A DNA stretch of 64,000 bases from Loktanella salsilacus. Lineage in GTDB: Bacteria; Pseudomonadota; Alphaproteobacteria; Rhodobacterales; Rhodobacteraceae. A model generated the notes under the pieces. The model was not told the DNA's origin, did no database searches, and saw only the letters and a list, made by a program, of their open reading frames with translations. Where the stretch lies: the NCBI RefSeq assembly GCF_900114485.1, contig NZ_FOTF01000008.1:124001-188000 (forward strand), in the 5' to 3' direction. The translations under genes were made by a program, and so were the position numbers. This document shows positions 14,672 through 34,560 of the stretch, piece by piece (position 1 is the first letter of the stretch; every line of letters starts with the position of its first letter).

Positions 14672-15661
14672 ATGGAAAACGTCCCAAGCCAAAAGAGCGC
14701 AGTCGCGTATTTATACCCGCCGCTTGATCCGTTCGATCAGCGCATTGTGGACGTGGGCGATGGACATAAAGTTTATGTGGAGCAGTGCGGCAACCCTGTG
14801 GGTATTCCCGTTGTCGTGTTGCATGGCGGTCCGGGCGGCGGGTGTAGCCCTGCGATGCGGCGGTATTTTGACCCGGCTAAGTATCGCATCGTGCTGTTTG
14901 ATCAGCGTGGTTGCGGGCGATCGCGCCCTCATGCCAGCGTCGTGGCCAATACGACGTGGCACCTTGTCGCCGATATCGAACTGATCCGGGTCACGCTTGG
15001 CATTGATCGCTGGATTGTGTTCGGCGGTAGCTGGGGGGCGACGCTCGCGCTGATCTATGCGCAGACCCATCCAGAAAACGTGGCCGCTTTGGCGCTGCGC
15101 GGTGTGTTCTTGATGACGCAGGGCGAGCTTGATTGGTTCTATGGTGGCGGCGCGGGGCGGTTTTGGCCTGACCTGTGGCAGCGCTTTGTCCAGCTTGTGC
15201 CAGAGGACGAACGCGGCAATCTGATTGAGGCCTATCACAAGCGCCTGTTTTCCGGCGATATGATGACCGAAACGAAGTATGCCCGCGCTTGGGCGCAGTG
15301 GGAAAATGCGCTGGCCGCGATTGACAGCGACGGGGTGACGGGGGAAAGCCCAGCGGATTATGCCCGCGCCTTTGCTCGGCTGGAAAACCACTATTTTCAA
15401 CACAGTGGCTGGCTAGACAGCGACCACCAGATCCTTGCGCGCACGGACCGTCTGGCCAATATTCCCGGCGTTATCGTGCAGGGGCGTTACGATATGATCT
15501 GTCCGCCGCTGTCGGCCTATACCTTGGCGCAGCAGTGGCCGCTGGCAAAACTGACCTTTGTTGGGCGCGCTGGGCATGCGCTGTCAGAGCCCGGCATCAG
15601 CGCTGAGCTGGTGCGCGCGATGGATGGGTTTGCTGCCGACAAGACGCGGCTCAGGCTGTGA
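14672..15661 (+). CDS. pip: Proline iminopeptidase
   Basis: A serine peptidase of the alpha/beta-hydrolase fold (329 residues) that releases N-terminal proline from peptides in the cytosol. Seen are the oxyanion-hole motif HGGPGGG, the DQRGCGRS motif of the family, the nucleophile elbow GGSWGATLAL and the C-terminal histidine in GRAGHA. A TATATA box lies only 8 bases before the ATG, so the message might be leaderless or have a very short leader; AGGTGA just before the ATG could instead be a ribosome-binding site. A strong terminator follows. Confidence 0.93.
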   Translation: MENVPSQKSAVAYLYPPLDPFDQRIVDVGDGHKVYVEQCGNPVGIPVVVLHGGPGGGCSPAMRRYFDPAKYRIVLFDQRGCGRSRPHASVVANTTWHLVADIELIRVTLGIDRWIVFGGSWGATLALIYAQTHPENVAALALRGVFLMTQGELDWFYGGGAGRFWPDLWQRFVQLVPEDERGNLIEAYHKRLFSGDMMTETKYARAWAQWENALAAIDSDGVTGESPADYARAFARLENHYFQHSGWLDSDHQILARTDRLANIPGVIVQGRYDMICPPLSAYTLAQQWPLAKLTFVGRAGHALSEPGISAELVRAMDGFAADKTRLRL

Positions 15662-15664
15662 TAG

Positions 15665-15692
15665 ACGCCGCCCTTGCGGCGGGCGGCGTTTT
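15665..15692 (+). terminator. intrinsic terminator after pip
   Basis: A 9-bp GC-rich stem (ACGCCGCCC with GGGCGGCGT) and a 7-base loop lead directly into a short T-run, four bases after the pip stop. Confidence 0.8.
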
Positions 15693-15757
15693 AGTCTAAA
15701 TGATTTTTCAACAGCGGCGTGCTGGCCTCCACCCCCAGCGCCCAACCGGAATTCGCA

Positions 15758-15780
15758 ACGGGCCGCGCGCCCGTTTTTTT
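15758..15780 (+). promoter_or_regulatory. terminator-like hairpin in the rimP leader (candidate attenuator)
   Basis: A stem ACGGGC/GCCCGT with a 5-base loop is followed by seven T, ending 16 bases before the rimP ATG. Because pip already has its own terminator 70 bases earlier, this second one most probably acts on transcripts entering rimP-nusA-infB. A GC-rich imperfect hairpin at about 15717-15742 precedes it and might compete with it. In gammaproteobacteria a 'rimP leader' attenuator is known; NusA feedback is an obvious model but is inference. Confidence 0.65.
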
Positions 15781-15796
15781 GTGCTTGGAGATATCC

Positions 15797-16396
15797 ATGA
15801 ACGACTTGATTGCCAAAGCGGCCATCGACCGCCGGATCGCAGAGATCATCACCCCTGTCATCGAGGACATGGGGTTCGAGGTCGTGCGCATCCGTCTGAT
15901 GACTGGCAAGGAATCGACGCTTCAGATTATGGCCCAAAAGGCCGACGGCACGATCGAGGTTGATGATTGCGGCCAGATCAGCACCGCCGTTGGTGCTGTG
16001 CTGGACGTCGAAGACCCGATCCTTGATGAATATACGCTAGAGGTCAGCAGCCCCGGCATCGACCGTCCGCTGACCCGTCTGAAAGATTTCGACCAGTGGC
16101 AGGGCTTTGAGGCCAAGATCGAAACCGATCAGCTGATCGACGGTCGCCGCCGCTTTAAGGGCGAGCTGGCTGGCGTTGAGGGCGACGAAGTTCTGATTAC
16201 CATTCCGGCCGGCGATCACGGCAAGGATGAGGTCACCATCGGCCTGAAATTCGACTGGTTGTCGGATGCAAAGCTGGTGCTGACAGATGATTTGATCCGC
16301 AACGTATTGCGCGGACGTAAAGACGCGGGCCAGATCGACGAGGCCCAATTCGACGAGATTGAAACCATCATTGATGGGGATGAGGAGAACACCTGA
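15797..16396 (+). CDS. rimP: Ribosome maturation factor RimP
   Basis: Needed for assembly of the 30S ribosomal subunit. The 199-residue product has the RimP N-terminal domain ([18 protein letters not shown], then [21 protein letters not shown]) with the [14 protein letters not shown] motif closing it, and a C-terminal SH3-like domain. I placed the start at the ATG at 15797, with GGAG about 7 bases upstream, rather than at an in-frame start at 15719 lying across the leader hairpin. The C-terminus is longer than in E. coli. First gene of the operon; its stop overlaps the nusA ATG by one base. Confidence 0.94.
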
Positions 16397-18006
16397 TGGC
16401 CATTACGTCTGCAAACCAGCTAGAGCTGCTGCAAACCGCCGAGGCGGTTGCCCGCGAGAAGAACATCGAACCCGGCCTGGTGGTCGAGGCGATGGAAGAA
16501 TCGCTCGCCCGGGCTGCCAAGTCGCGTTACGGCGCTGAAATGGACATCCGTGTCAGCATTGACCGCAAGACCGGTCGTGCGACCTTTACCCGCGTCCGGA
16601 CCGTCGTCGCAGAAGACGACTACGAGAATTATCAGTCGCAGTTTACGCTGGAAACAGCGAAGGATTGGATCAAGGACGCTAAGATCGGCGATACGCTGGT
16701 CGAAGAAGTCCCACCGGTTGAATTGGGCCGGATCGCTGCGCAGTCGGCCAAGCAAGTTATCTTGCAAAAGGTCCGCGAAGCCGAGCGTGACAAGCAATAC
16801 GAAGACTTCAAAGATCGTGCTGGCACGATCATCAACGCGCTGGTCAAGCGCGAAGAGTACGGCAACGTCATCGTCGACGTGGGTTCGGGCGAAGCCATCC
16901 TGCGCCGCAACGAAAAGATCGGCCGCGAAGCTTATCGCCCCAACGACCGCATCCGTTGCTACATCAAGGACGTGCGCCGCGAACAGCGCGGGCCACAGAT
17001 TTTCCTGTCGCGGACTGCGCCGGAATTCATGGCAGAGCTGTTTAAGATGGAAGTGCCTGAAATCTATGAGGGCATCATTGAGATCAAGGCCGTCGCCCGT
17101 GACCCCGGCTCGCGCGCCAAGATCGCCGTCATTTCATACGACTCCAGCATCGACCCCGTCGGTGCCTGCGTTGGTATGCGTGGTTCCCGCGTGCAGGCTG
17201 TCGTGAACGAGCTGCAGGGCGAGAAGATCGACATCATCCCGTGGAACGAAGACATGCCAACGTTCCTTGTGAACGCGCTGCAGCCTGCTGAAGTCAGCAA
17301 GGTCGTTCTGGATGAAGAAGCCGGTAAGATCGAAGTCGTCGTCCCCGAAGAGCAGCTGTCGCTGGCCATCGGCCGCCGTGGTCAGAACGTGCGTCTGGCA
17401 TCCCAGCTGACTGGTCTGGATATCGACATCCTGACCGAAGAAGAAGAGTCCAAGCGTCGTCAGGCCGAATTCGAACTGCGCACGAAGCTGTTCATGGATA
17501 CGCTGGATCTGGACGAATTCTTTGCTCAGCTGCTGGTGTCCGAAGGGTTCACCAACCTTGAAGAAGTCGCCTACGTTGAAGCCGAGGAGCTGCTGGTCAT
17601 CGAAGGTGTTGACGAAAGCACTGCCGGCGAATTGCAGGCCCGTGCCCGCGATTATCTGGAAGCGCAAAGCAAAAAGGCCCTTGATCACGCCCGCGAGCTG
17701 GGTGTCGAGGATTCGCTAGTTAACTTCGAAGGTCTGACCCCGCAAATGGTCGAAGCCCTTGCGGAAGACGGCGTGAAAACGCTTGAAGACTTCGCAACTT
17801 GCGCAGACTGGGAACTGGCTGGCGGCTGGACTGTTGTTGACGGACAGCGCCACAAAGACGAAGGCGTGTTGGAAAAATTCGAGGTCAGCCTGGAAGAAGC
17901 ACAGAATCTGGTGATGACCGCCCGCGTTATGCTGGGCTGGGTTGATCCGGCGGACCTTGTTTCCGATGAAGATGACACCGATATGGAAGAGGAGGCAGAG
18001 GCGTAA
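16396..18006 (+). CDS. nusA: Transcription termination/antitermination factor NusA
   Basis: Binds RNA polymerase and modulates pausing, termination and antitermination. The 536 residues show the N-terminal polymerase-binding domain, an S1 domain with the ILRRNEKIGREAYRPNDRIRCYI segment, and two KH domains (GACVGMRGSRVQAVVNEL and LAIGRRGQNVRLASQLTG). The C-terminal part has helix-hairpin-helix-like repeats and a highly acidic end. The length is typical of alphaproteobacterial NusA. It is the second gene of the rimP operon and could feed back on the leader hairpin. Confidence 0.97.
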   Translation: MAITSANQLELLQTAEAVAREKNIEPGLVVEAMEESLARAAKSRYGAEMDIRVSIDRKTGRATFTRVRTVVAEDDYENYQSQFTLETAKDWIKDAKIGDTLVEEVPPVELGRIAAQSAKQVILQKVREAERDKQYEDFKDRAGTIINALVKREEYGNVIVDVGSGEAILRRNEKIGREAYRPNDRIRCYIKDVRREQRGPQIFLSRTAPEFMAELFKMEVPEIYEGIIEIKAVARDPGSRAKIAVISYDSSIDPVGACVGMRGSRVQAVVNELQGEKIDIIPWNEDMPTFLVNALQPAEVSKVVLDEEAGKIEVVVPEEQLSLAIGRRGQNVRLASQLTGLDIDILTEEEESKRRQAEFELRTKLFMDTLDLDEFFAQLLVSEGFTNLEEVAYVEAEELLVIEGVDESTAGELQARARDYLEAQSKKALDHARELGVEDSLVNFEGLTPQMVEALAEDGVKTLEDFATCADWELAGGWTVVDGQRHKDEGVLEKFEVSLEEAQNLVMTARVMLGWVDPADLVSDEDDTDMEEEAEA

Positions 18007-18025: not shown

Positions 18026-18652
18026 ATGACCCGTGGTGGATTGAAAAAGAACCTGGATGACGGACCGGAGCGTCGGTGCATTGTCACCGGCGAAACGCAA
18101 CCGAAGATGGGGTTGATCCGCTTTGTTGTCGGGCCCGACAATCATGTTGTGCTTGACATCTTGGGCAAGTTGCCCGGACGTGGTATATATGTTGCATCCA
18201 CCCGCGACGCGCTGGACAAGGCCAAGAAGGGCCAGTTCAGCCGATCTGCAAAAGCGCAGGTTCAAGTCCCGGATGGATTAACGGAAGAAGTCGAACGCCA
18301 ACTGGTCCGGCGCACACTGGATTTGATTGCGATGGCCCGCAAGGCGGGGCTCGCGGTTTGCGGGTTCGAAAAGGTAAAAGGCTGGTTGGCCGGGGGCGAA
18401 AACGTGCGCGTCCTGCTGCAAGCCGGTGACGGATCAGAGCGTGGCAAGGCCAAACTCTGGACGCCCGAAGGGGCAAGATATTACAGCTGTTTGACCGCAG
18501 CTGAATTGGGTTTGGCTTTCGGGCGGCAAAGTGTGATACATGGCGCGCTCGCGACTGGCGGACTCAGTGACCGTGTTGTAGAGGAAGCCGCAAGACTGCG
18601 CGGACTCCGCGAGATTGACGACAGCAATATGGCTGTCGGGAAGGATACATAG
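18026..18652 (+). CDS. RNA-binding protein, YlxR (RnpM-like) and L7Ae-like domains fused
   Basis: A 208-residue fusion. Residues about 10-85 are a YlxR/DUF448 domain (RRCIVTGETQPKMGLIRFV, then LPGRGIYVA), a fold that binds RNA and, in Gram-positive bacteria, associates with RNase P. Residues about 95-190 resemble an L7Ae/L30e domain (RTLDLIAMARKAGLAVCGFEKV). In Firmicutes these two domains are separate genes, ylxR and ylxQ, at the same place between nusA and infB, so a fusion is natural. It lies 19 bases after nusA and 4 bases before infB. Confidence 0.88.
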   Translation: MTRGGLKKNLDDGPERRCIVTGETQPKMGLIRFVVGPDNHVVLDILGKLPGRGIYVASTRDALDKAKKGQFSRSAKAQVQVPDGLTEEVERQLVRRTLDLIAMARKAGLAVCGFEKVKGWLAGGENVRVLLQAGDGSERGKAKLWTPEGARYYSCLTAAELGLAFGRQSVIHGALATGGLSDRVVEEAARLRGLREIDDSNMAVGKDT

Positions 18653-18656
18653 CTAG

Positions 18657-21149
18657 ATGAGCGATACTGACGGCAAGAAACCATTGGGCCTTGGCGGGTC
18701 GCGTCCGAGCAACGTGAAGCAAAGCTTCAGCCACGGTCGCACGAAGAACGTTGTTGTGGAAACCAAGCGTAAGCGCGTTGTGGTGCCTAAGCCGGGCACT
18801 CCTGCGCCCAAAACTGGTGTGGCCGCTGGCCTGCCCGCTGGCGGTGACCCGTCCAAGCGGCCCGCAGGCATTTCCGATGTGGAACTTGCCCGCCGGATGA
18901 AAGCGCTGGCGCTAGCCAAGTCGCGTGAAGTCGAAGAAGCGGCTAAGCGCGAAGCTGAAGAAAAAGAGCGTGCTGAAGAGCGCGAGCGCCGCCGCGCTGA
19001 GATCGAGGCTAAAGAAGCCGAAGATCGCATCCGCGAAGAGCGTGCCAAGGCGAAAGCCGAGGAAGAAGAAGAAAAGCGTCGCGCTGCTGAAGCAGCCAAG
19101 AACGCACCTGCGGCGCAGGTTGCTGCGCCTCCGGGCCAGACCGAGGTCGACCGTCCGACGTCCAGCGCACCGCGCAAGGCGACCGAACGTGACCGCGAGG
19201 CACAGACACGCGACACCACCAAAGCCAAGCCCGCCCGCGAAGGCGATGGCCGCCGCGGTGGCAAGCTGACGCTGAACGACGCGTTGACGGGCCGCGAAGG
19301 TGGCCGCCAGCGTTCCATGGCGCAGATGAAGCGTAAGCAAGACCGCGCCCGCCAAAAGGCGATGGGCGGTCAGGTCGAGCGCGAGAAGATCGTGCGCGAT
19401 GTGCAGCTGCCAGAGGCGATCACCGTCGGCGAATTGGCGAACCGGATGGCCGAACGGACATCTGATGTCGTCAAGGAACTGATGAAGATGGGTATGATGG
19501 TCACGCAGACCGAAACCATCGACGCTGATACAGCTGAACTGCTGATCGAAGAATTTGGCCACAAAGTTGTCCGCGTGTCCGATTCCGACGTCGAGCAGGT
19601 CATCGAACAAGCTGAAGATAAAGCGTCTGACCTTAAACCGCGTGCGCCGATCATCACGATCATGGGCCACGTTGACCACGGTAAAACATCGCTTCTGGAT
19701 GCGATCCGTAAGACACGGGTTGTGGCTGGCGAAGCAGGCGGCATCACGCAGCACATCGGTGCCTATCAGGTGACGACGGACAACGGATCGGTTCTGTCGT
19801 TCCTTGACACGCCGGGTCACGCTGCGTTCACGTCAATGCGTTCGCGCGGTGCACATGTCACTGACATCGTTGTGCTGGTTGTTGCGGCAGATGACGCCGT
19901 GATGCCTCAGACGATCGAGGCGATTAACCACGCTAAGGCCGCTAAGGTCCCAATGATCGTGGCCATCAACAAGATGGACAAGCCGTCGGCCAATCCTGAC
20001 AAGGTGCGGACCGATCTGCTGCAGCACGAGGTCATCGTCGAGAAGATGTCCGGTGATGTGCAGGACGTCGAAGTTTCGGCTGCGACGGGTGCTGGTCTGG
20101 ACAAACTGCTGGAAGCCATTGCGCTGCAGGCCGAAATTCTGGAACTGAAAGCCAACCCCGACCGCGCCGCCATGGGTGCCGTGATCGAGGCGCAACTCGA
20201 CGTGGGCCGCGGCCCCGTTGCGACAGTTCTGGTGCAAAACGGCACGCTGCGTCAGGGCGACATCTTTGTCGTTGGCGAACAGTGGGGCAAGGTCCGTGCG
20301 CTGATCGATGACAAGGGTGACCGCGTCAAAGAGGCCGGCCCGTCCGTGCCAGTTGAAGTGTTGGGTCTGAACGGCACACCGGAAGCCGGCGACGTTCTGA
20401 ACGTGGTCGACACCGAAGCGCAAGCGCGTGAAATCGCTGATTACCGGATGAAGGCCGCGAAAGATAAGCGCGCCGCCATCGGTGCTGCGACGACGCTGGA
20501 ACAGCTGATGGCAAACGCCAAAGCCAACCAGAGCGTGTCCGAGCTGCCAATCATCGTGAAAGCCGACGTGCAGGGTTCTGCCGAGGCGATCGTGCAAGCG
20601 ATGGAAAAAATCGGCAACGACGAAGTCCGCGTCCGCGTGCTGCACTCTGGTGTTGGCGCGATCACGGAATCGGATATCGGTCTGGCAGAAGCGTCAGGCG
20701 CACCCGTGATTGGTTTCAACGTGCGTGCCAATGCGACGGCGCGGAACGTGGCCAACCAGAAGGGCGTAGAGATCCGTTATTACTCGGTCATCTATGCCCT
20801 CGTGGACGACATCAAAGCGGCGGCCTCTGGTCTGCTGTCGAATGAAATCCGTGAAAAGTTCATCGGCTATGCCAACATCAAAGAGGTCTTTAAGGTCTCG
20901 AACGTTGGTAACGTCGCGGGCTGTCTGGTCACCGAAGGTGTGGCGCGTCGTTCCGCTGGCGTCCGTCTGCTGCGCGACAACGTCGTGATGCACGAAGGTA
21001 CGCTGAAGACGCTGAAGCGCTTTAAGGACGAAGTGTCCGAAGTGCAGTCGGGTCAGGAATGCGGCATGGCGTTTGAGAACCACGAAGACATGCGCCCTGG
21101 CGATGTCATCGAGATCTTTGAGCGCGAATCGGTCGAGCGTAACCTGTAA
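18657..21149 (+). CDS. infB: Translation initiation factor IF-2
   Basis: The GTPase that brings initiator tRNA to the 30S subunit (830 residues). The first 230 residues are a highly charged, probably coiled-coil region rich in Glu, Arg, Lys and Ala, with [10 protein letters not shown]. Next come the IF2 N-domain ([17 protein letters not shown]), the G domain with [18 protein letters not shown] and NKMD, and the C-terminal IF2 domains ending in GDVIEIFE. It is the last gene of the rimP-nusA operon and is followed by a strong terminator. Confidence 0.98.
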
Positions 21150-21171
21150 AGGACGCAGACTTAGAATGAGA

Positions 21172-21206
21172 AAAGGCCCGTCAGCGATGCTGGCGGGCCT
21201 TTTTGT
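21172..21206 (+). terminator. intrinsic terminator after infB
   Basis: A 14-bp stem (one G-T pair, three-base loop) of AAAGGCCCG...CGGGCCTTT type followed by a T-run, 22 bases after the infB stop. It is one of the strongest terminators in the window. Confidence 0.93.
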
Positions 21207-33738: not shown

Positions 33739-34560
33739 TTAGCGCGAGGCGTTCCAGCTGACCGATGCGTGGCGGCGGGTGTAGAATTCGCCAAGCAGTC
33801 CCAGCATCAGCAACACAAGCGCCACATACAGCGGATACGTCGGAGAGCTGAAGTGAGGGTTGTAGTTCAAGAAGATGTCGCCGCGAATCTGGTCGATGCA
33901 ATGAAACAAGGGATTCCAATCAAAAATCGACAGCATGGATGCAGGCAACGTATTTGCCAGAAACATCTTGCCGGATGCGATCATGTTGACGCGGCCATAG
34001 ACCGTACTGCCAATGCGGGTGAAATCCGGGGCCCAAGGTTTGATCGCCAAAAAGATCGTTCCAACCGCCACACCAGAGAACCAAGAGATCATCAGCATTT
34101 CCAGCGCGCCGATGGGATTGTCGATCACGACGGGTTTGTAGGTGACGTGATAGATGAACAACACCACAACGATTGATAGAAATTGCAAATACAGCGACGA
34201 AAGCGCCGCGGCGCAGATCGAAATTGCTGTCGTCATCGGGGCGTGATTCATCATCGCGGACGCGGGCCCTTCGGATCCGACGACCGCGCCCATTGCCTTT
34301 GTGTGGGCCATGTACAGAAAAATACCCGACATGATGTACATCAGGTAATCCCCGCGCACCGCAGAGCCGCGCATCCCCAGCAGTGCGAACATGCCGTAGA
34401 ACGATGCGATCATCAGAACAGACTGAAAAATGTTCATGATCAATCCGACCAGCGGATTGCGGTGGTTTTTGCGGACGTCACGTACGGCGCTGTGGTAAAT
34501 CAGTTCGGCCATCCCCAAAACAGAGCGCGTGCGTGATCTTGGGGCCTGCACCTGAAACAT
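33739..34560 (-). CDS. ABC-2 type permease, polysaccharide-export type
   Basis: A 273-residue inner-membrane protein with about six hydrophobic segments and the layout of Wzm/KpsM permeases, which move complete polysaccharide chains to the periplasm. The N-terminal cytosolic helix region (AELIYHSAVRDVRKNHRNPLVG) and the central NHAPMTTAISICAAAL segment fit this family. No matching ATP-binding subunit is found next to it or elsewhere in the window, so the partner must be encoded elsewhere. It is divergent from cysQ, the first gene of the glycan operon, which supports but does not prove a shared role. Confidence 0.78.
   Translation of the reverse strand: MFQVQAPRSRTRSVLGMAELIYHSAVRDVRKNHRNPLVGLIMNIFQSVLMIASFYGMFALLGMRGSAVRGDYLMYIMSGIFLYMAHTKAMGAVVGSEGPASAMMNHAPMTTAISICAAALSSLYLQFLSIVVVLFIYHVTYKPVVIDNPIGALEMLMISWFSGVAVGTIFLAIKPWAPDFTRIGSTVYGRVNMIASGKMFLANTLPASMLSIFDWNPLFHCIDQIRGDIFLNYNPHFSSPTYPLYVALVLLMLGLLGEFYTRRHASVSWNASR

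Follow-up and report, generated by a model that had tools for sequence, protein, structure and literature searches.

The rimP-nusA-infB locus and its leader

In the 64,000-nucleotide stretch of Loktanella salsilacus DNA analysed here (the window), a distance of 138 nt separates the end of pip, encoding a prolyl aminopeptidase, from rimP, which has the same orientation, and rimP is followed by nusA, a gene for a YlxR-like RNA-binding protein and infB (Table 1). The names pip, rimP, nusA and infB had been given in an earlier sequence-only reading and match the family models. The same reading described a hairpin with a seven-T run 16 bases 5' of rimP, preceded by a GC-rich hairpin. Both are present: the first was recovered in the sequence and by a terminator scan, with 16 nt between the end of the T run and the rimP ATG (15797-15799), and the second is the seven-pair hairpin termed P2 below. 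Taken by itself, the window sequence does not set these features apart, because terminator-like sites are no commoner in it than expected by chance (13 in 15 kb against a shuffle mean of 14.0 in the scan) and the folding energy of the leader is average (z = -0.26); the case for the hairpin hence rests on its conservation. The rimP frame extends without a stop codon across part of the leader, as far 5' as the GTG at 15719 (+ strand; 225 aa ORF, 15719-16396), an extension that is probably fortuitous as the spacing between leader and gene varies among relatives.

Table 1. Features of the pip-rimP-nusA-infB region, in window positions
Feature	Position	Strand	Basis or detail
pip, prolyl aminopeptidase	upstream of leader	+	family models
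Hairpin after pip	15663..15691	+	11 pairs
-35 hexamer TTGCGG, predicted	15674..15679	+	alignment with relatives
-10 hexamer TAAATG, predicted	15697..15702	+	family consensus TATATG
Transcription start, predicted	15709 (C of CAACAG)	+	about 7 nt past the -10
P1 5' strand GCGGC, putative antiterminator strand	15714..15718	+	partner 15762-15766
P2 hairpin	15719..15741	+	15719-15725 pairs with 15735-15741; seven pairs, loop CCTCCACCC
Conserved linker	15742..15749	+	CCAACCGG in the window; YCCACCGG usual form
P3 5' strand, putative, within linker	15746-15748	+	partner 15759-15761
Terminator hairpin	15757..15775	+	7 pairs, 5 G-C (terminator scan); stem AACGGGC-CGCGC-GCCCGTT read in sequence
Segment common to terminator and putative antiterminator	15759-15766	+	CGGGCCGC; P3 and P1 3' strands
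T run of terminator	15774..15780	+	seven T; first two also paired within the stem
rimP	15797..16396	+	ORF and family model (RimP)
nusA, likely regulatory target	16396..18006	+	ORF and family model (NusA)
ylxR-like RNA-binding protein gene	18026..18652	+	ORF and family model
infB	18657..21149	+	ORF and family model (IF-2)
Terminator-like hairpin 3' of infB	21170..21204	+	16 pairs (terminator scan)

The terminator of its own that the sequence-only reading had assigned to pip (15665-15692) fares less well. A real hairpin is located there, and the fold of 15660-15700 reaches -22.2 kcal/mol (z -3.7), but it is accompanied by only four T, three of them within the stem, and is absent from the output of the terminator scan for the window, making it weak as an intrinsic terminator. 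Beyond what that reading had noticed, we found a predicted promoter, a putative antiterminator pairing and an overlap between the pip hairpin and the promoter. At the predicted -35 position a TTG is present in 134 of 135 aligned elements, with a spacer of 17 in 131 of those 134, and the full promoter pair (TTG, 17 nt, TATATG-like) accompanies 122 of 135 elements as against 3 of 2709 random placements. The predicted -35 hexamer coincides with the loop of the pip hairpin, such that the end of pip and the initiation of rimP use the same bases (15674-15702, + strand). The short same-strand distance from pip in the window could be taken to mean that the hairpin before rimP is merely a second terminator of pip. 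However, no more than 19 of 137 loci have pip in this orientation less than about 400 nt away, yet the hairpin is present in 136, and a conserved promoter intervenes between pip and the hairpin, which together render this highly improbable.

Conservation of the cassette across the family

We assembled 137 loci, comprising nine genomes of the genus (the window's included) and 128 of 140 other genomes of the family with a RimP match, and scored the cassette as present when a terminator pattern was accompanied by a best match to TCAACAGCGG with at most 4 of 10 mismatches. By this measure 136 of the 137 loci, among them that of the window, have the cassette 5' of rimP, made up of: 1) the promoter; 2) a leader of about 72 nt beginning with CAACAGCGGC; 3) the covarying P2 hairpin; 4) the CCACCGG linker; and 5) the terminator. 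The sequence-only reading had named conservation of the stem across relatives as one point on which its proposal could fail, and had suggested a covariance search; the stem is conserved to this extent, and a covariance model whose base pairs are those of P2 and the terminator only (R1) matches 373 of 394 family genomes at E <=0.01, about 130 of which, having been used in training, match by construction. In 50 further loci the element was detected by pattern in 46, the four misses all falling among nine weak RimP matches. Two of the genomes behind these misses (G061 and G066) nevertheless contain an R1 match. A pattern scan of named genomes yielded at least 120 loci, with rimP 14-96 nt downstream in all 120 listed; we take these loci to belong to genera of Rhodobacteraceae in the wide sense, save two labelled only as alphaproteobacteria.

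In a motif-anchored alignment the positions 5' of the promoter have an average information content of about 0.08 bits, a value to which it returns downstream of the element, with ten-position means of 1.2-1.6 bits at the 5' end of the leader, the terminator and the T run, positions at which the anchor motifs inflate the values. It also rises at the -35 and -10, and the promoter was not used as an anchor. Across 136 loci the leader measures 65-75 nt (median 72), whereas the gap from terminator to start codon ranges over 12-79 nt. This near-constant leader length alongside a variable distance to the start codon points to control via transcription rather than via masking of the ribosome-binding site.

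A search of the leader stretch against Rfam gave no element above threshold, riboswitches included; the SorX model at 15707-15780 attains 13 bits against a threshold of 46.6, which is at chance level and was rejected. Elsewhere in the window (33844-33994, + strand) RF02645 Cis2_sRNA, the Ruegeria cis2 sRNA, scores 60.3 bits, exceeding its gathering score. The own promoter, near-fixed length and conserved terminator of the leader would also befit a small RNA of about 72 nt, released by termination and acting in trans. We consider this quite unlikely, as every locus examined has the element next to rimP or nusA, as it gives one strong match per locus in the 80 loci searched among the at least 120 named ones (plus one chance-level match on the opposite strand) and one strong match in the genome of the window, and as no Rfam sRNA match at the leader stretch exceeds threshold. 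A candidate second copy in the window's own genome, the next R1 match (25.2 bits, E 0.013), appears by eye to be an ordinary terminator after a coding region.

Structure of the leader RNA

A MAFFT alignment of 135 distinct elements, submitted to RNAalifold unprompted, yields three helices: four of the five pairs of P1, lying within GCGGC/GCCGC; six pairs of P2; and two of the three pairs of P3, which join the CC of the linker to a GG of the terminator (CCG/CGG). The terminator is not predicted, and RNAalifold may disfavour it on account of the gappy 3' arm that it has in this alignment. Once the outermost pairs are included, the combined P1, P2 and P3 structure has pairing in 95.0% of cells, compared with 88.6 upon shuffling, and covariation is 0.241 against 0.122, for the most part from P2; the same structure shows 132 both-side changes against 44.9 in shuffled alignments, and sliding the partner strands cuts pairing to 32-46%.

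Taken individually, the helices differ in the following ways: 1) All six counted pairs of P2 show both-side changes. 2) P1 and P3 alone are 97.6% paired and near-invariant. In P1 both-side changes are confined to one pair, in 2 sequences, a level that 76 of 500 shuffled alignments attain as well; in P3 there are none in this alignment. When P1 and P3 are slid by 1-3 columns covariation scores and both-side counts are similar or higher (0.040 at -3 versus 0.038 in register; 4 cells at +2 versus 2), with pairing of only 28-44%. 3) In the terminator 96.4% of cells are paired and 12 show both-side changes, where shuffling gives 1.9; registers slid by +2 and +3 give covariation scores similar to the unslid one; its first three G-C pairs are kept in 135, 133 and 124 of the 135 sequences. 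Overall we grade covariation as strong for P2, moderate for the terminator, and thin but above permutation for the antiterminator. The comparative data indicate a conserved cassette that includes P2 and the terminator. P1 and P3 take up a contiguous segment of the terminator, CGGGCCGC, and this use of it would explain why the 5' arm and adjoining half of the loop are near-invariant while the 3' half of the loop is variable.

Non-standard P1 strands occur in 28 of the 182 records. The energy of pairing between the own 5' strand and terminator arm of these variants is -12.2 kcal/mol, compared with -10.95 for permuted combinations (p 0.00035); with a single row of genus g23 kept, n is 25 and p 0.00046, a permutation that handles kinship for this one genus only. 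In two variants both strands have changed with pairing kept (L063, CAGAGGC/GCCTCTG; L319, ACAGG/CCTGT). Of the seven elements changed on both sides, three pair poorly (L066, L110 and L327), and for L339 and L343 a mixed combination does as well as the native strands; in L014, L117, L118 and L129 P1 is partly broken or weaker. In genus g23, four elements (L310, L313, L320 and L336) have differing terminators of the form TGGGGCC... or ATGGGCC... and keep CCGCTG, which is complementary to the 5' CAGCGG.

Folding in silico allows for both states. Truncation just ahead of the 3' arm leaves 120 of 135 transcripts with a minimum free energy fold that contains P1, counted when four or more of its five pairs form; shuffling the 5' strand lowers this to 2%. 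P3 is present in just 66 of the 135 truncated folds. The energy of the terminator minus that of the antiterminator has a median of -3.0 kcal/mol, favouring the terminator, with 101 of 135 within 5 kcal/mol, and just 90 of the 135 full-length minimum free energy folds contain the terminator. For the growing transcript of the window the antiterminator is predicted at 15767 and 15770, a third fold at 15773 and the terminator at 15776 and 15779. These predictions are in keeping with mutually exclusive, near-equal states, and we consider the antiterminator likely.

The principal structural alternative is an attenuator that lacks a true antiterminator, being either constitutive or tuned by NusA reading the GGGC...GCCC stem, with the 5' strand kept for the promoter or initial transcription. 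Such a design accords with the 2010 analysis of Naville and Gautheret, which in the parts available to us proposed recognition of the stem by a protein, and saw no antiterminator, for the general rimP-leader (PMC2965389). It would also account for the near-invariant P1 5' strand located at the predicted start site, for covariation that is thin and not above the slid controls, and for other alphaproteobacterial families that have the stem and in which CAACAGCGG was not seen by eye. Nevertheless, RNAalifold selects P1 and P3 over the terminator, the variants keep their cognate pairing above permutation, the four differently built g23 terminators retain the complement of CAGCGG, and the linker CCACCGG is conserved though distant from the start. 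On balance we hold the design lacking an antiterminator to be unlikely.

The cassette before nusA

The sole exception among the 137 loci (L074, genome G079, genus g72) has the cassette, with its promoter, directly 5' of nusA. In this genome an extra gene separates rimP from the nusA cassette, and infB is also downstream (L338); the intervening ORF (L338, 1163-2617, + strand) encodes 484 aa with repeats that by eye resemble RTX calcium-binding ones. The only other g72 genome examined (G750, 69% complete) likewise has the cassette between rimP and nusA, such that it precedes nusA in both genomes of this genus, each having one R1 match and none at rimP. By eye, rimP of G750 is preceded by a promoter-like sequence with the element absent, and rimP of G079 by a similar promoter-like sequence along with what looks like the decayed remnant of a terminator. 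Since the g72 cassette stands directly before nusA and rimP is left without a working copy, nusA appears to be the likelier target of the cassette. The arrangement also argues that control of nusA and the genes following it matters in g72. NusA gains some weight as the controller, though this falls short of proof, since infB is downstream in G079 as well.

The signal might instead be the state of the ribosome or of translation, or cold, with a CspA-type RNA chaperone, RimP or IF-2 tipping the switch. The portions of a study of E. coli that we could consult describe a rise of nusA-infB transcripts after cold stress, and CspA-family antitermination figures among its references (PMC6511841); moreover, infB too is downstream of the cassette both in the window and in L338. 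On the other hand, the g72 cassette sits after rimP and before nusA, which makes RimP unlikely as the effector, and an ATG is present in only 36 of 136 leaders, with no conserved ATG-started leader peptide (ATG starts being the only ones considered), a candidate we accordingly rejected. We regard an effector of this class, rather than NusA, as doubtful.

Proposed mechanism

Taken together, these observations are best explained, in our estimate with a probability of roughly 0.7, by a promoter-proximal transcription attenuator with an antiterminator, on which NusA would most likely act. The components of this reading differ in strength: the element is very probably an attenuator of rimP-nusA-infB and its hairpin the probable stop half of an RNA on/off switch, the antiterminator is likely, and NusA as the effector stands at about even odds. 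We infer the start site, the cotranscriptional order of folding, the switching itself and the role of NusA as the signal.

Under the attenuator model RNA polymerase would start near 15709, and the leader, about 72 nt long, would on emerging first fold as a three-way-junction antiterminator consisting of P1 (GCGGC/GCCGC), P2 and P3 (CCG/CGG), in which P1 and P3 would hold all eight nucleotides of CGGGCCGC from the 5' arm and loop of the terminator. Should this structure persist, transcription would read through into rimP-nusA-ylxR-infB; should it yield once the 3' arm GCCCG emerges, the terminator would form and transcription would stop at the T run. The energies of the two folds differ little, so that the balance could plausibly be tipped by a factor that binds the junction or acts on the paused complex, and the likeliest such factor may be NusA itself, resulting in negative feedback on its own operon. 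More speculatively, the leader might be a dedicated sensor for NusA or the NusA-bound paused polymerase, with the three-way junction and the conserved CUCCACCGG strand read by the factor encoded downstream; it would then represent an autogenous switch for a core transcription factor, found throughout Rhodobacteraceae, whose promoter and switch could move together with nusA as one cassette. With the family-wide version a candidate switch of only 72 nt and two defined folds is to hand, and the g72 arrangement is a natural pointer to nusA as its target. The old question of NusA autorepression might thereby come within reach of a small set of point mutations and NusA titrations in common marine bacteria.

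Other alphaproteobacteria and known systems

Outside the family, a GGGC...GCC(C/T)-T pattern precedes rimP in 20 of 30 loci from other families, chosen as the 30 best-scoring RimP matches, with at least two of doubtful status (L280 and L299); the stems are typically of the form GTGGGC...GCCCAC or GCCCGC. The CAACAGCGG strand was not seen by eye in these 30 rimP loci. The terminator half hence looks general and the promoter-proximal antiterminator half specific to Rhodobacteraceae. Duplex energies relative to shuffles have a mean z of -0.9 in 21 loci of other orders and of -1.1 in the family itself, so that this test is without power. A class-wide search with R1 matched 18 of 289 genomes, 4 of the family and 14 others; among these 14 weak matches, rimP is detectable just downstream in 4. 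The order-level sample contained only the same family and provided no outgroup. In one alphaproteobacterium outside the family (L145, minus strand) the leader has CCACCG and later CGGTGG just before the terminator, resembling a longer P3.

The closest known system is the rimP-leader. As far as the accessible text of Naville and Gautheret goes, rimP headed the ranking of genes with predicted control by attenuation, and its leader was called, in 2010, the most ubiquitous transcription attenuator; NusA was named the best candidate regulator, and the repression of the E. coli nusA operon by NusA, known for decades, was cited (PMC2965389). The element described here agrees with that description, so far as we have it, in lying in the 5' leader of rimP-nusA-infB, in having a GGGc...gCCC stem followed by a T run, in a spacing to the start codon that is not fixed (16 nt for the window and 12-79 in the 136 loci, against a published 4-130 nt) and in the proposal of NusA (PMC2965389). 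The independent attenuator of the sequence-only reading is borne out in part: the element looks like a leader attenuator in an alphaproteobacterium, but it is not clearly independent, given this published signature and the similar pattern in other alphaproteobacterial families. In the part of the article seen, no larger conserved element is reported for the rimP-leader and no antiterminator is visible in its general form, whereas several gammaproteobacterial leaders have a second, upstream terminator with a potential antiterminator (PMC2965389). The Rhodobacteraceae element, in contrast, combines a single leader terminator with a 72-nt promoter-proximal RNA, P2, the conserved linker and a probable three-way antiterminator; the extra CCCg...cGGG terminator of Gammaproteobacteria is absent from the predicted leader, and the antiterminator is a different one. 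A term search of the main text for Alphaproteobacteria, the supplement excluded, finds only the title of a reference (PMC2965389).

The E. coli nusA-infB operon, to judge from the sections of its description at hand, shares with the present one the operon, terminators upstream of rimP and a NusA feedback, the last as proposed here; it differs in that metY, more than one promoter and a pair of terminators precede rimP (PMC6511841). Rfam RF01770 (rimP) has the same gene context by name, but the leader does not score the 47 bits of that family: cmscan at E <=10 gives no RF01770 match there, and a genome search returned only sub-threshold matches elsewhere (best 26.8 bits versus 47), while one of 14 control genomes had a match above the cut-off. 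In the nusA operon of B. subtilis, NusA reportedly promotes termination in its own leader (Mondal et al. 2016). The logic proposed here is analogous, with a dependence on NusA that we would presume for the Rhodobacteraceae element. In literature searches covering titles and the beginnings of abstracts, with most subscription journals and all supplements beyond reach, none of the papers listed dealt with this leader in Rhodobacteraceae or with this antiterminator version. The kind of attenuator is already known; the family variant, with its likely antiterminator, is new and well-defined.
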